From assembly GCA_023138735.1 (NCBI GenBank), contig JAGLOY010000069.1, positions 1 through 62,142 of the forward strand: a DNA stretch of 62,142 nucleotides. Direction: 5' to 3'. Below the pieces are notes generated by a model. That model searched no databases, was not told where the DNA came from, and saw only the letters and a program-made list of their open reading frames with translations. The stretch comes from Candidatus Aegiribacteria sp. (GTDB lineage: Bacteria; Fermentibacterota; Fermentibacteria; Fermentibacterales; JCC-6). The translations under genes were made by a program, and so were the position numbers. This document shows positions 4,489-9,653 of this stretch, one piece after another. Positions within the stretch are counted from its first letter, which is position 1; each line of letters opens with the position of its first letter.

Positions 4489-5454
4489 ATGAAAACAGAT
4501 GAGATTACATTGCATGAACTGAATACGGAGCAGTTCATCGAAGAGAAAGTGAAAGAGATATCGTCTCTTGTTGGAAGTGGTACAGCTATCAACGCTCTTT
4601 CCGGAGGCGTGGATTCCTCCGCAGTCACCATGCTGGGGCACAAAGCACTTGGAAAGAGGCTTAAAACGTATTTCATAGAAAACGGCCTTATGCGAAAAGG
4701 CGAGCCTCAGAAGATCGTCGACCTTTTTAAGAACCATGGAGTAGAAGTCATACTCCTCGATGCCAAAGAAGAATTCTTCAACGCTCTTGAAGGCATCACT
4801 GATCCTGAACAAAAGAGAGAAGCCATAACGCAGACGTTCTATAAAAGCGTTTTTGGCAAGCTTGTAGAAGAAAGCGGTGCGAAATACCTACTACAGGGAA
4901 CAATTCTGACCGATGTCGATGAGACCGTGGCAGGCATCAAGCGCCAGCACAATGTATTCGAGCAACTGGGCATCGATCCTCAGGAAGCGTTCGGCTACAA
5001 GATCATTGAACCCCTTGTGCAGCTCAGAAAAGACGGCGTAAGAGAAGTGGCCGAAGCACTGGGTTTGCCTGCATCCGTTTACAACCGGATGCCTTTCCCG
5101 GGACCGGCGCTTTCCGCAAGAGTCATTGGTGAAGCCACACCCGAAAAGATCGAGCTTGTCCGGCAGGCAACAGTTATAACTGAAGAGATCCTTTCTGATG
5201 TAGATGCCTTCCAGTACATGGCCATTCTACACAATGACAGGGTAACCGGTATGCGCGACGGCAGAAGAGATTTCGGGCTGCAGATAGAGATACGATGCTG
5301 GAACAGCATTGATGCAAGGACGGCCACACCCACGAATCTTCCCTACGAAACCCTTATGGAACTCTCAGGACGGATACTGGAAGAAGTGCCGGGAGTGGTG
5401 AGTGTAACGTATAATATTGCATCGAAACCGCCGTCAACAATGGAAGCGATATAG
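4489..5454 (+). CDS. guaAB: GMP synthetase ATP-pyrophosphatase subunit (no GATase domain)
   Basis: The protein begins directly with the ATP-PPase domain: P-loop SGGVDSS at 38-44, then the GMP synthetase motifs LLQGTILTDVDE, FPGPALSARVIG and a C-terminal dimerisation domain ending SKPPSTMEAI (family consensus KPPATIEWE). It would amidate XMP to GMP using ammonia from a separate glutaminase subunit, as in archaeal split enzymes. At 321 residues it lacks the roughly 190-residue class I amidotransferase domain of bacterial GuaA. A strong Shine-Dalgarno (AGGAGGGG) precedes ATG 4489. A nucleotide-biosynthesis gene as a mobile cassette is unusual; the last motif also departs from consensus. The symbol follows the split-enzyme convention. 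Confidence 0.88.
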   Translation: MKTDEITLHELNTEQFIEEKVKEISSLVGSGTAINALSGGVDSSAVTMLGHKALGKRLKTYFIENGLMRKGEPQKIVDLFKNHGVEVILLDAKEEFFNALEGITDPEQKREAITQTFYKSVFGKLVEESGAKYLLQGTILTDVDETVAGIKRQHNVFEQLGIDPQEAFGYKIIEPLVQLRKDGVREVAEALGLPASVYNRMPFPGPALSARVIGEATPEKIELVRQATVITEEILSDVDAFQYMAILHNDRVTGMRDGRRDFGLQIEIRCWNSIDARTATPTNLPYETLMELSGRILEEVPGVVSVTYNIASKPPSTMEAI

Positions 5455-5510
5455 AAAAAGAGGGGTCAGCACCTTAATAGTAATTACTAATGGAACTAGT
5501 AGGTAATAAA

Positions 5511-5569
5511 ATCTAACAACTTCATGCAGCTGACCGTGCTTTGCGCGGCACCTGATTCGGACGTTATAC
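5511..5569 (+). repeat. attC6 recombination site
   Basis: R'' ATCTAAC (5511-5517) matches the expected complement TTCTAAC in 6 of 7 bases. The inner segment GTGCTTTGCGCGGCAC can form a hairpin. R' is GTTATAC at 5563-5569. Confidence 0.82.
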
Positions 5570-5591
5570 GCAAACATTTAGAATTGGAAAC

Positions 5592-5831
5592 ATGAATCAA
5601 CAGCAACCGAACAATCCATTGCATGGCATTACATTAGAAATGGTCGTGAACACAATTGTTGATCATTTTGGATGGGAAGAGTTAGGTAAGCGAGTGAATA
5701 TCAAATGCTTCAAGAATGATCCATCAGTGAAGTCTAGCCTGAAGTTTCTAAGAAGGACGCCTTGGGCTAGACGTAAAGTTGAAGAACTATACCTCTTAAT
5801 TCAAAGCTCGATAGGGCATGGGAGCGTATAA
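5592..5831 (+). CDS. VF530 / DUF2132 family small protein
   Basis: The 79-residue product matches the VF530 family closely: [32 protein letters not shown], then [19 protein letters not shown]. The family has a helical structure and is described as DNA-binding; it is a frequent integron cassette product in Vibrio. The cellular role is unknown. The stop TAA lies within the attC R'' box GTATAAC, so the recombination site itself supplies the stop codon. Confidence 0.9.
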
Positions 5832-5896
5832 CCTCTCGTTGCAACGGAACTGGAGAGTCGTTCCGGTCTCCAGTCCGCTGAACTCGGTCGTTATCT
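5826..5896 (+). repeat. attC7 recombination site
   Basis: R'' GTATAAC (5826-5832; GCGTATAAC in full) exactly complements GTTATACGC at the cassette head. It contains the stop codon of the upstream gene. R' is GTTATCT at 5890-5896. Confidence 0.9.
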
Positions 5897-5918
5897 AAAA
5901 TACTTGGGGGGGTCGCCT

Positions 5919-7346
5919 ATGGGGCAGAAAAAGACAAAACAAGACAAATTAAGAGAAGTAATGAAACCATTTGTATCTCCTCTCCCAACTAAGGATATTG
6001 GTAAAAAGTATACCAAATCGGAGCTAATTCAGGATCTTGATTTTATGGTTAAAACCATGGAAGAAGTTCATCCTGATTTGTACTTCTATTTCGAGAAGAA
6101 TAGGGCTATCTCCCTTCTTGAAGAGGTAAAGCAGTCTCTACATGATGGATTTGATAGGATAGATTTCTATACTCAAGCAGCTAGATTTGTAAGAAACTTC
6201 TCTGATGGGCATACATCAGTTTATACGCCTAGTGAGGAATACTCTAAGTATAGAGATGCTAGTGGTCTCCTCTTGCCGTTTAACGTAGACTGTTCCTCTG
6301 GTGAAATTGTCATTCTAAAATCATTTTCCAAAGAGCACCACTCTAGTCATGGTAAAACTATTACCAGCATTAACGGCATTTCCTCAGAGTCATTACTTGA
6401 TTCCATGGTTTCCCTATTAAGCTTTGAGCGAAGAGAAATGAGCCTAACATGCCTTTCTTCTTCATTCGGGAAACTGTTGTTTCTCCTGTATGGTCCTTGC
6501 AATACATTCTCCATAACTTTGCGTAACAGCCAAAATACTGAAGAGGTAAATATTTCAGGTGTTTCAAATGAGGTTATCAAAGAAAACAGTAATCAAGATC
6601 CTAATGAAAAAGAGGCTCCATACGAATTTACGATCAATAAAGAAGAAAACTATGCATTGCTTGATTTTCGTGAATTCGTTGATTTGAGTAGCTTTAAGAA
6701 ATTAATCAGGGAGATGTTTGAACAGATTGAAATAAATGATGTTAGCAAGGTGATTGTAGATATTAGAAAAAATGGAGGGGGAAATTCATGGCTTACGGAA
6801 GAATTTGCATCTTACATAACAGATAAACCTTTCAGACAATTTTCTGGAACAGATTTTAAAGTATCCAAGCAGATTCGAAAATATTACCCAGTAATGATGA
6901 AGCATTTTACTTCGTTTCCAATGTCACTTGTCCCAGCTAAATATCTTTACAGAACACCATGGGAAAAAGGAATTGGAGACATCGTTTCTAGTGAGGCAAA
7001 GGTAAAAAAGCATAAGCCTAAACAACCATTTTTTACCGGAAGAGTTATTGTACTAATCAGCGCATATACTTTTTCCTCTGCAACAGGATTTGCTACAGCA
7101 ATTAAGGATAATGCTCTTGGAACGATTATTGGGACACCTACTGGTGGATTTCCAAGCTCGCACGGTGATAGTTTTCCATTTACTCTTCCTAATACTTACC
7201 TGCAATGTGGTGTTTCCCACAAGTTCTTTGTTAGACCAAATGGTAACAGAACTCCGGAGCCACTCTATCCAGATTTTCTAATTGAGGAAACAGACCCAAA
7301 TGCTGAAATTGACAGAGTTCTTGAATATGCTATAAACATGAAGTAG
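5919..7346 (+). CDS. S41 family (C-terminal processing-like) serine peptidase
   Basis: About residues 240-475 form a peptidase S41 core: VIVDIRKNGGGNS (substrate-binding strand and turn), then AYTFSSATGFATAIKDN containing the nucleophile serine at about residue 386-387, and the late IIGTPTGG segment. The N-terminal 230 residues include the helical part typical of tricorn-core/S41 proteins (VRNFSDGHTSVY). No signal peptide is evident, so a cytoplasmic peptidase is likely. ATG 5919 is preferred over an upstream TTG because a G-rich Shine-Dalgarno-like run (5906-5912) precedes it. The gene is visibly richer in A+T than its neighbours, which supports separate ancestry. The stop TAG overlaps the first two bases of the attC R'' box. 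Confidence 0.85.
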   Translation: MGQKKTKQDKLREVMKPFVSPLPTKDIGKKYTKSELIQDLDFMVKTMEEVHPDLYFYFEKNRAISLLEEVKQSLHDGFDRIDFYTQAARFVRNFSDGHTSVYTPSEEYSKYRDASGLLLPFNVDCSSGEIVILKSFSKEHHSSHGKTITSINGISSESLLDSMVSLLSFERREMSLTCLSSSFGKLLFLLYGPCNTFSITLRNSQNTEEVNISGVSNEVIKENSNQDPNEKEAPYEFTINKEENYALLDFREFVDLSSFKKLIREMFEQIEINDVSKVIVDIRKNGGGNSWLTEEFASYITDKPFRQFSGTDFKVSKQIRKYYPVMMKHFTSFPMSLVPAKYLYRTPWEKGIGDIVSSEAKVKKHKPKQPFFTGRVIVLISAYTFSSATGFATAIKDNALGTIIGTPTGGFPSSHGDSFPFTLPNTYLQCGVSHKFFVRPNGNRTPEPLYPDFLIEETDPNAEIDRVLEYAINMK

Positions 7347-7352
7347 ATAACA
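7345..7352 (+). repeat. attC8, left fragment (split by insertion sequence)
   Basis: R'' AGATAAC (7345-7351) exactly complements GTTATCT at the head of this cassette, so it is the true left arm. The expected L'' arm is missing here and is found 1.6 kb downstream, on the far side of the inserted element. Confidence 0.85.
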
Positions 7353-7476
7353 CTTATGAGGCCCCCCTCTGTCAAGGGATAAATGTTCCCCCTGACAGGT
7401 GATCATTCTGTTTTCATTTCGTCTTGTATCCAGTTCAGCATTCTGACTTTGTTTCAAGTTCAGGTTCTGCACCAAA

Positions 7477-7622
7477 CACTTATCGAGGATCAGTGGCTCA
7501 TCCAGGATGAGCCGGGAAGGTTTTGACCTCCTCGTCCTAGAAACACATACGTTCCCTCATGCCGTCCCATTCAAAACTTAGGGTTGAATACCGCAGCACT
7601 CACCAGTTAGCTCCGGGTTCGG
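7477..7622 (-). ncRNA. predicted bridge RNA of the IS1111-type element
   Basis: Read on the - strand, stem CCGAACCC (7622-7615) with GGGACGG (7568-7562) encloses an internal loop. Its 5' strand GGAGCUAACU (7614-7605) matches the left attC flank GTAGATAACA in 7 of 10 positions. The complement of its 3' strand (CATTCAAAAC, 7568-7577 on +) matches the right flank CAATCAAATG in 7 of 10. Between them sits a 9-bp hairpin (7604-7582, loop UGCG). This is the order of a bridge-RNA target-binding loop. Further 3', CACTTATCGAGG (7477-7488, +) repeats the element's own end CACTTATGAGG (7351-7361), as expected of a donor guide, next to a perfect hairpin (7495-7513). The exact RNA ends cannot be fixed by reading. 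Confidence 0.55.
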
Positions 7623-7831
7623 GGGAGGAGCAGAACACTTCACTGAATACCTTTCATATCTGCGGGAGCGGAGCGACCATCCAATCAACCAAAAATGTTT
7701 ACCTGGAATGCGCTGAGGTACCTTCATCCTGGTCAAGGCCAGATTCTCTCGAAGTTTCTCTGCGAGGGTACTCATCCAGCTTCTTCCTTTCGGTTACAGT
7801 TATACATTTGGCTTGGCCGTTCCCTCCCTTG

Positions 7832-8878
7832 TTACGCCCTGAGGAACTTATTCATATCGAATGCCTTCTCGCGCTTAAGCATGTAATAAGTTGCTCTTCC
7901 AAGCTTATGAGCGAGGATGGAGAGAAATTTTGCTTTGCCATGCTTCCTCTCCAGCCGCTTCTTGTATTTCATCCCTTCCGGATTACCTTTCAGGAACATT
8001 ACAGAGGCTTCAGAGAACGCCCACTTGAGATGAACATTCCCGATCTTGCTGCCGGAAGTGCCATATCGTTTCCCGGCGGATTCTCTGGCACACTTTACCA
8101 GCCTGCTGTAAGATGCAAAGTCCTGTACACTCGGGAAGCGACTAATGTCACCAATCTCGTAGAATATCGTCAGGGATAGAACCTTACCGATTCCATATAT
8201 GGTTTGCATCAGGTACAACGACTGTGGATCATGATGCTTTGCATTGTCCAGAACATGCTTCTCCATAGCCCTGATCTGAACGGCAAAATGATCAATCAGA
8301 TCAAGATTGACCCTCATGCTCATGTAAACATCCGGATCGGTGAAGTGACTCAGAATCTCTTCTCGGTGACATTTGTGCGCAATATTGGAAATACCGAACG
8401 CAGGTTGGTTGTACTGGCTGTTCGTGTTCTGGACATGAGTGATAAGATCAGCTCTCTTCCGAACCAGGTAATTCCTTCTTCTCAAAAGATCTCTTGTTGC
8501 CCTCATCTTCGCAGGATAAACATAGGCCATAGGGAACATTCCGCCTTTGAGCATAGCAGCTATCTTTCCCGAATCTATCCTGTCGTTCTTCGCTTTACCG
8601 CCATGAATTGCTTTCATATACAAGGCATGGCCAAGGGTGAAAGGTATTCCTTCCTCGGCACATAGATCCGCAATCCAGTACCAGGTGAAGATACATTCTA
8701 CCCCAACAACTATATCCGGTCTGTAAGGTTCTATAGCTTTGATAAGGGATTCCGGATCAGCTTTCATGTTACGGTGAAGAACAATTTCTCCATCCGAACT
8801 GATGATACAGAGATACATTACCCTGGCGTGAAGGTCGATGCCGCAGTAATATTGGTGTGTGGTAGTATAGAACCTCAT
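7832..8878 (-). CDS. IS110/IS1111 family transposase (DEDD recombinase)
   Basis: The 348-residue protein has an N-terminal RuvC-like DEDD domain: YCGIDLHARVMYLCIIS (first Asp), VVGVECIFTWYW (Glu) and AKNDRIDSGKIA (Asp pair). A C-terminal Transposase_20 domain follows, with YGIGKVLSLTIFYEIGDISRF and the serine-bearing motif RYGTSGSKIGN. The length is typical. A good Shine-Dalgarno (AAGGAGGAG) lies just before the start at 8878. With a bridge RNA it would recombine the circular element into attC sites. All catalytic motifs are intact and the frame is open, so the element may still be active. Confidence 0.93.
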   Translation of the reverse strand: MRFYTTTHQYYCGIDLHARVMYLCIISSDGEIVLHRNMKADPESLIKAIEPYRPDIVVGVECIFTWYWIADLCAEEGIPFTLGHALYMKAIHGGKAKNDRIDSGKIAAMLKGGMFPMAYVYPAKMRATRDLLRRRNYLVRKRADLITHVQNTNSQYNQPAFGISNIAHKCHREEILSHFTDPDVYMSMRVNLDLIDHFAVQIRAMEKHVLDNAKHHDPQSLYLMQTIYGIGKVLSLTIFYEIGDISRFPSVQDFASYSRLVKCARESAGKRYGTSGSKIGNVHLKWAFSEASVMFLKGNPEGMKYKKRLERKHGKAKFLSILAHKLGRATYYMLKREKAFDMNKFLRA

Positions 8879-8961
8879 TGGGTCTCCTCCTTGTTAGGGA
8901 AAAAGGTTAGCACCTCCAGCATACCAATTAGGCATGCCGAGGGGGAGGCCTCAATGAGTAT

Positions 8962-9038
8962 CAATCAAATGCAGTAGAACAGTGGGCTTCGTCATCAGTA
9001 AACTCGGTAACACTGTCTATTGATTTGAAGCGTTAACC
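8962..9038 (+). repeat. attC8, right fragment
   Basis: The L'' arm CAATCAAATGCAG (8962 on) pairs with CTGTCTATTGATTTG before the core GTTAACC (9032-9038). Together with 7345-7352 it makes one complete attC interrupted by the insertion sequence. Confidence 0.85.
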
Positions 9039-9039
9039 C

Positions 9040-9074
9040 TTGACAAAACCAATGGTATGACAAATGGTAATACC
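9040..9074 (+). promoter_or_regulatory. possible promoter/operator of mazEF cassette
   Basis: A consensus -35 TTGACA lies at 9040-9045, but no good -10 follows at 16-18 bases. An inverted repeat GGTAT (9054-9058) / ATACC (9070-9074) surrounds the expected promoter and could bind the MazE dimer for autoregulation. Confidence 0.3.
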
Positions 9075-9087
9075 GGAGGTGAATGAC

Positions 9088-9330
9088 ATGAGTACTGCAA
9101 AGATAGCTATCAGCATGAATGAAGATATGCTCCTTCAACTTGATGATCTTGTCTCTAAAGCAGAGTTTCCCAGCAGAAGCGGAGCCATACAAAAGGCAGT
9201 TCGTGAAATGCTTGAAAAGAAGTACGGCAACCGTCTTGCACGGGAATGCTCTAAGCTGGATCCTGAAGAAGAAATGGCTATAGCTGAGGAAGGTATGAGT
9301 AGTGAGCTTGGATCATGGCCGGAGTACTGA
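9088..9330 (+). CDS. mazE: MazE-like ribbon-helix-helix antitoxin
   Basis: The 80-residue protein begins with a ribbon-helix-helix DNA-binding fold: strand AKIAISMNEDMLLQLDDLV, turn with FPSRSGAIQKAVREML (residues about 4-45). An acidic C-terminal tail (LDPEEEMAIAEEG) follows, of the kind that wraps the toxin. ATG 9088 is chosen over an in-frame GTG-less upstream start because GGAGGT sits seven bases before it. The next gene, mazF, overlaps its end by 16 bases. The pair fills one cassette; autorepression through the inverted repeat upstream is plausible. Confidence 0.85.
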   Translation: MSTAKIAISMNEDMLLQLDDLVSKAEFPSRSGAIQKAVREMLEKKYGNRLARECSKLDPEEEMAIAEEGMSSELGSWPEY

Positions 9331-9653
9331 GAGGCGATATTCTCTGGGCAGATCTGAACCCTACAATCGGGCATGAACAATCCGGGAAAAGACCAGTACT
9401 GGTTCTCAGCAATGATGTTTTCAATGACCGTTCGGGTACAGTGATCACTGTTGCCCTGACTAGTAGAGAGCCCAGGGCAGGATTTCCTCTAACCTTTGAA
9501 TTGTCAGATGCATCACTCCCGAAGAAATCATGGATCAAGATAAGCCAGATCAGGACTCTGTCGATCAAGCGTATCGGCAAGAAAATCACCAGGATATCTC
9601 CAGAGGAAATTACTGCAATTCTTTCTGGTTTGAATGAAATTATCGGGGGTTAA
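9315..9653 (+). CDS. mazF: MazF/PemK family endoribonuclease toxin
   Basis: The 112-residue product has the PemK/MazF barrel motifs: RGDILWADLNPTIGHEQSGKRPVLVLSND at the N-terminus (G-x-x-x-G-x-RP hinge), the VALTSR segment, and KSWIKISQIRTLSIKRI with the conserved Q-I-R-T. MazF cleaves mRNA at short single-stranded sequences; MazE inhibits it. It overlaps mazE by 16 bases. The TAA stop lies inside the attC R'' box GGTTAAC. This is the second complete toxin-antitoxin module of the array. Confidence 0.93.
   Translation: MAGVLRGDILWADLNPTIGHEQSGKRPVLVLSNDVFNDRSGTVITVALTSREPRAGFPLTFELSDASLPKKSWIKISQIRTLSIKRIGKKITRISPEEITAILSGLNEIIGG

Follow-up and report, generated by a model that had tools for sequence, protein, structure and literature searches.

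A candidate bridge RNA with separate target and donor loops in an IS110/IS1111-type element that interrupts an attC site of Candidatus Aegiribacteria

Overview

An IS110/IS1111-type element inserted in an attC site of Candidatus Aegiribacteria very probably carries a bridge RNA (seekRNA), in which a target loop (M1) and a donor loop (M3) would guide insertion into attC. The element lies within the window, the whole stretch of 62,142 nt that was analyzed, and its features are listed in Table 1. Comparison with related elements locates the putative guides and demonstrates their co-variation with sites and ends, the stems and the TG core. Three of the four proposed guides are well supported by co-variation, the right target guide less so. 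A bridge RNA downstream of the transposase had been put forward in the original prediction, and both the structured non-coding region found there and the co-variation of guides with sites and termini argue for it.

Table 1. Predicted features of the element and of the interrupted attC (window coordinates)
Feature	Position	Strand	Basis or remark
IS110/IS1111-type element	7351–8961, equally 7353–8963	minus	length 1611 bp, counting a single TG core
Transposase gene, 348 aa	7832–8878	minus	DEDD_Tnp_IS110 and Transposase_20 (Pfam, NCBIfam)
Right subterminal inverted repeat, GGCCTCA	7357–7363	minus	co-variation of sTIR arms
Left subterminal inverted repeat, TGAGGCC	8947–8953	minus	co-variation of sTIR arms
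TG core, right junction	7351–7352	minus	dinucleotide common to target and donor; empty sites and junction table
TG core, left junction	8962–8963	minus	empty sites and junction table
Target loop M1, closing helix, 5' arm	7815–7828	minus	helix co-variation, folds of 12 elements
Target loop M1, closing helix, 3' arm	7664–7678	minus	helix co-variation, folds of 12 elements
Putative left target guide, TTGGTTG	7686–7692	minus	reads LT and core (TTGATTG), 6/7, the mismatch a G.T wobble
Putative right target guide, GTATAAC	7799–7805	minus	complement of core G and RT; 5/7 for the resident GTTATCT
Look-alike module M2	7567–7614	minus	GGAGCTAACT at 7605–7614, GTTTTGAATGG at 7567–7577
Putative left donor guide, ATAAGTGTT	7475–7483	minus	reads right end ATAAG, core TG and TT
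Putative right donor guide, ATGTGTTTC	7540–7548	minus	complement of GATACTCAT, left end
Donor loop, inner-stem arm AGGA	7535–7538	minus	partner TCCT, 7486–7489
Donor loop, inner-stem arm TCCT	7486–7489	minus	co-variation with AGGA arm
R'' core site of interrupted attC, AGATAAC	7345–7351	plus	direct reading
Remaining attC (L'', loop, L', R' GTTAACC)	8964–9038	plus	direct reading; homologues in 13 of 192 genomes, own included

The element and its relatives

The transposase scores above cut-off for both PF01548 (DEDD, RuvC-like, N-terminal) and PF02371 (Transposase_20, C-terminal), and for the NCBIfam model NF033542, 'IS110 family RNA-guided transposase'. About 480 nt of non-coding sequence lie downstream of the gene compared with about 83 nt upstream, in keeping with the long downstream region typical of the IS1111 group, and a search of positions 5000–9500 against Rfam returned no curated RNA family up to E = 1. 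The subterminal inverted repeats (sTIRs) TGAGGCC/GGCCTCA fall within the 7–17 bp length range of the IS1111 group. Their arms co-vary among 63 elements, with 415 of 441 bases identical against 331.4 after shuffling, and are fully identical in 43 of the 63.

The element is present in a single copy in its own genome, where no second one was found. Full-length relatives with 79–92% identity occur in Candidatus Aegiribacteria, there is one 95% relative in another genome of the same genus, and the best 80 of the 161 relatives include further ones in many other phyla, as labeled in the records. Of 97 candidate elements, 70 (window included) form the co-variation set, 27 having been dropped when the right end or a guide could not be located. 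Left ends are usable in 63 of the 70, and 60 have a usable left flank of 16 bases; among the latter, the 3' strand of M1 was located in 55 and that of M2 in 49. Representatives each stand for a cluster (39 at 75% identity in the donor-guide test, 30 in the left-target test).

Among 72,556 plasmid records, 25 match the transposase at E ≤ 1e-40, all with less than 60% identity, and none of the 25 is by label a known attC insertion sequence. ISKpn4, ISPst6 and ISPa21 were not found by label among the 60 matches listed of 567 at 1e-5, nor in half of pKPN4. The viral contigs searched held no relative, the E. coli genomes nothing similar to 7352–7834, and the stretch 7426–7580 has 31 nt in common with two Manganitrophus plasmids. 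One locus (L116), on a Vibrio campbellii plasmid, has two adjacent IS110 transposase genes. Three IS110 elements (L121, L122 and L123) form an outgroup that is about 31% identical and whose right end differs, reading AATGGGTG(T/A)C; by eye, these repeat their own right end downstream, and in two of the three the repeat is complete over TGGGTG(T/A)C.

The interrupted attC

Within the interrupted attC, the element splits the R'' core site at a TG common to the target and both junctions. When its two flanks were joined and used as a query, homologous attCs turned up in 13 of 192 genomes, the element's own included. Beyond the window there are 26 such places, of which 23 were read; one has an element end and 22 are without an element. 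In 19 of these 22 empty sites, AAC stands directly before the L'' arm with no extra bases (e.g. ATAAC-AATCAAATG), the exceptions being L126, L134 and L139. Because the empty sites show this AAC-L'' arrangement, the window junctions reduce to AGATAAC + AATCAAATG, giving an element of 1611 bp. TG is found at both window junctions as well as in the homologous empty sites, and the exact cut within this shared core cannot be placed; at the right junction, the first core base is other than T in 15 of the 70 elements. The one occupied place (L128; G033:C62), in a related genome, has the left end of another copy at the identical position, so that the two elements split homologous attCs at the same point.

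An initial placement of the boundaries at TTGA|TACTCAT and CATAA|GTGTT was rejected because the empty homologous attCs assign the GA and GT to the element. With this revision, a strand earlier taken to bridge donor and target is read simply as a donor guide. A pattern for empty sites in which an ACTC spacer was assumed had no match in 40 genomes or in the window, which agrees with the revised boundary.

Since the R'' core site is split by the element, excision of the cassette at this attC is likely to be blocked. By eye, two more attC-like sites are present at 5495–5900, shortly after the gene for a GMP synthase C-terminal protein (4489–5454), and flank a small cassette upstream of an S41-peptidase cassette (5904–7346); a cassette array probably begins here. 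Near the interrupted attC is a PemK/MazF-like toxin gene (9315–9653), probably part of a toxin-antitoxin cassette, and a BrnT-type toxin is encoded at 953–1243 of the window.

The proposed donor loop and its guides

The left donor guide co-varies with the right end of its own element. The patterns that anchor guide and right end fix ATA, one G and GTT, while leaving the variable base x and the first core base free; x agrees in 63 of 70 elements against 20.9 expected, the next base in 70 of 70 (55.7 expected) and the first core base in 59 of 70 (52.3 expected). For the 39 representatives the corresponding counts are 33, 39 and 34, against 10.6, 31.7 and 30.5. Among 156 column pairs, these three consecutive columns, which belong to a single register, take the first, second and fourth places (first to third in representatives), and by register sums the expected register is first of 29 (z 9.3 for all elements, 5.6 for representatives). 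In the window, the 9-mer AACACTTAT at 7475–7483 is identical to 7349–7357, where about 0.002 such matches would be expected in 471 nt (471/4^9). The original prediction had described 7477–7488 as a near-copy of the plus-strand left terminus and as a donor guide, and the donor-guide reading is supported by the co-variation. On the plus strand the segment (CACTTATCGAGG) equals that terminus with its core (CACTTATGAGG, from 7351) bar one inserted C. The second donor guide had been missed, and is placed here at 7540–7548.

For this right donor guide, register i+j=22 ranks first of 35 (z 6.4 for all elements, 4.4 for representatives), a result that rests on a 5' donor-guide anchor using a small pairing bonus; the stems alone were recounted without it. 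The best single column pair is off register (A14-B19, 7/63), the on-register pairs being second and sixth. As a control, the same strand was compared with the right end, giving z 4.6 for all elements and 4.2 for representatives, a signal that we attribute to the linkage of the sTIRs. Owing to relatedness, controls rise to z 6.9 among single pairs and to 4.6 among registers. Within the right donor guide, GTTTC may have a second pairing partner in GAAAC at 7451–7455.

The inner stem of the loop is paired in 239 of 280 cells, against 171.5 after shuffling, with four to six pair types per position, and the outer stem is weak (289 of 350 against 281.5). The surrounding stretch (7435–7575) is modestly more stable than its shuffles (z -1.56). 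A separate donor-reading loop is characteristic of a bridge RNA, and the co-variation points to one here.

The proposed target loop and its guides

Module M1 is located directly after the stop codon of the transposase gene. Its closing helix has a mean longest length of 9.38 bp in 58 elements, against 5.79 bp with shuffled partners, and of 9.91 against 5.78 bp in 32 representatives. The left target guide tracks the left half-site of its own element: from LT-5 to LT-1, agreement is seen in 24, 30, 41, 34 and 45 of 55 elements, where 14.6, 18.7, 15.1, 18.5 and 38.6 are expected, while the bases LT-6 to LT-9, beyond the guide, are at chance. This register is the top one of 31. Summed, the guide agrees at 174 of 275 positions against 105.4 expected, and at 103 of 150 against 64.4 in representatives, values reached in neither case by any of 2000 shuffles; the anchoring pattern for M1 contains LT-2 and LT-1, and is without LT-3 to LT-5. 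In the 30 representatives the counts from LT-5 to LT-1 are 13, 21, 25, 17 and 27 against 8.6, 11.6, 8.7, 8.7 and 27.0, and LT-1 is thus uninformative there. Tracking at LT-5 is doubtful, as its representative count is reached by 109 of 2000 shuffles and the tree gives 6.9/5.8 (see below). In the window itself, a register shifted by four bases (7682–7688, TTGATTG) fits 7/7, better than the 6/7 of the guide; across the family, however, this shifted register stays close to chance (85 of 275 against 80.4).

For the right target guide, the expected register comes out on top of 29 when all elements are used (z 4.3) but third when representatives are (z 1.8), and an identity control with the same strand scores z 3.9. 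The signal of this guide lies at RT+4 (50 of 62 against 41.9) and RT+5 (32 of 60 against 23.9). Co-variation thus points to pairing with both target strands, strongly for the left guide and weakly for the right.

Individual elements illustrate the variety of guides. Four different guides match four different sites exactly (5/5 each: TCCTG in L005, TTGTT in L006, AGCTT in L054 and ACCTT in L067), and L003 matches poorly, at 2/5. Three elements of Desulfopila (L047, L048 and L049) have identical guide strands and three different half-sites; one RNA at three half-sites means that the left target match may be loose. The target-tracking strands fall outside the segments that had been singled out in the original prediction, and the check it proposed, co-variation of guides with attC flanks, holds for the M1 strands at 7686–7692 and, more weakly, 7799–7805, but not for the loop it had named.

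Independent change on the transposase tree

On a FastTree tree of the 70 transposases, branch-independent pairs were counted as changing the same way or the other way, with the unchanged in brackets. Summed over bases that are not independent of each other, they amount to 44.0/9.7 (69.3) for LT and M1, 16.6/5.6 (85.7) for LT and M2, 13.6/0 (13.4) for the right end, 10.9/1.9 (23.2) for the left end and 15.7/2.8 (91.6) for RT, and to 4.8/6.7 (25.5) beyond the guide (LT-6, LT-7). At single bases, LT-3 stands at 15.7/0.

Module M2 and alternative explanations

M2, whose motifs are recognizable in most of the 70 elements, has motifs in common with M1. It was the loop of this module that had originally been taken to hold the target guides: on the minus strand, GTTTTGAATG (7568–7577) matches CATTTGATTG (left flank plus core) at 7 of 10 positions, as does GGAGCTAACT (7605–7614) with GTAGATAACA (complement of core plus right flank). 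The matches are present, but taken alone they are at the level of chance, with about 0.35–0.37 expected for each in a 134-nt stretch of this composition. If this loop (7568–7614) read the target, the upstream module would be something else, which we regard as highly unlikely. The register first proposed does fit the window's own site at 6/7 from LT-5 to the core (TTGAATG against TTGATTG), yet over the family it is at chance (49 of 245 against 48.4; 31 of 140 against 30.3 in representatives). In M1's register, the 3' strand of M2 does track LT, more weakly (115 of 245 against 89.2; representatives 75 of 140 against 51.7; by register, z 3.4 and 3.8). Where M1 disagrees with the site, however, M2 agrees at chance (23 of 88 against 20.3, reached by 549 of 2000 shuffles; representatives 14 of 39 against 10.2), whereas M1 keeps its signal where M2 disagrees (58 of 123 against 34.0, reached by none of 2000 shuffles; representatives 33 of 58 against 19.8). 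Compared head to head in 46 elements, M1 gives the better fit in 27 and M2 in 11, with 8 ties. M2 was rejected as the target loop, adding nothing significant once M1 is given; the predicted stem-loop is nevertheless a real, conserved module, though without independent tracking of the target. A three-loop bridge RNA, with M2 reading a further DNA partner such as the other attC arm or the half-site of a second protomer, seems unlikely; it would amount to a three-way recognition absent from the bridge-RNA papers cited below, as far as their accessible text goes.

Two further alternatives bear on M1 and M3 themselves. The site could be set by attC folded as single-stranded DNA, with the RNA recognizing only the donor, and many sites are indeed attC-like: those of other elements have TG|TT in common, 67 of 70 right flanks start with GTT (core G included) and 31 of 70 fit GTTRRRY. 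We consider this very improbable, given that the left target guide tracks LT bases that vary between sites, that a strict search for the second attC arm succeeds in just 11 of 55 flanks, with 3.2 expected, and that the flanks of two close relatives (L002 and L003), possible off-target insertions, are by eye unlike attC. The conserved strands could instead be structural or protein-binding RNA motifs, or reflect DNA ends bound by the transposase, their matches being inherited and not guiding. The wide conservation of the TTTGANTGG, CTAACTGG and GTGTTTGG motifs and the co-variation of the sTIRs among themselves would fit such a reading, but tracking is limited to the guide positions and their register and ends at LT-6, guides and sites change in step on independent branches of the tree, and LT belongs to the host and varies from site to site, all of which makes it extremely improbable.

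Proposed mechanism

In the favored mechanism, with guidance by M1 and M3, a non-coding RNA would be made from the sequence between the transposase stop codon and the right end. Its first loop, right after the transposase, would pair with the target attC, where its 3' strand reads the left half-site (top strand) and the TG core, and its 5' strand is the complement of the right half-site GTTRRRY. The second loop, some 150–200 nt further on, would pair with the ends of the element itself in their joined form; here the 3' strand reads the right end and the TG core, and the 5' strand is the complement of the left end. Holding the RNA, the DEDD transposase would recombine a circular donor (right end-TG-left end), presumably formed beforehand, with attC by strand exchange at TG.

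Comparison with known systems

The window element sits in the attC of a gene cassette, as reportedly do the elements of the IS1111-attC group. A literature search, with most subscription papers outside its coverage, found no title on the present clade. RNA-guided targeting of attC is already known in principle; the present comparison contributes guides placed by co-variation in a new clade, along with the third module. RNA-guided transposition into integron attC is extended to a clade that, going by record titles, occurs in many phyla, themselves mostly known from metagenomes; guide positions for target and donor, obtained from sequence alone, make natural retargeting predictable and testable, and the conserved extra module M2 is a concrete question raised by the element.

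In the accessible text of the published studies, seekRNAs are shown for the attC-targeting ISKpn4 and ISPst6, and ISPa25 is predicted to have one (Siddiquee et al. 2024, PMC11187229), and bridge RNAs are predicted in 93.0% of the IS1111 elements examined (Durrant et al. 2024, PMC11208160), the latter source also noting donor-binding nucleotides in a multiloop. Compared with the ISKpn4/ISPst6 seekRNA, as far as its published description goes, the candidate RNA differs in having its donor guides in a separate loop, a non-coding region of about 480 nt and a third, look-alike module. Going by the accessible account of the IS621 bridge RNA (PMC11208160), the two would be alike in having one loop for the target and another for the donor, each with two guides, in a core dinucleotide common to both and in the use of guide-target co-variation as evidence. 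They would differ in that the window RNA is at the right end with the strand order of its loops reversed, and the window element has long sTIRs, a larger region and an extra module.
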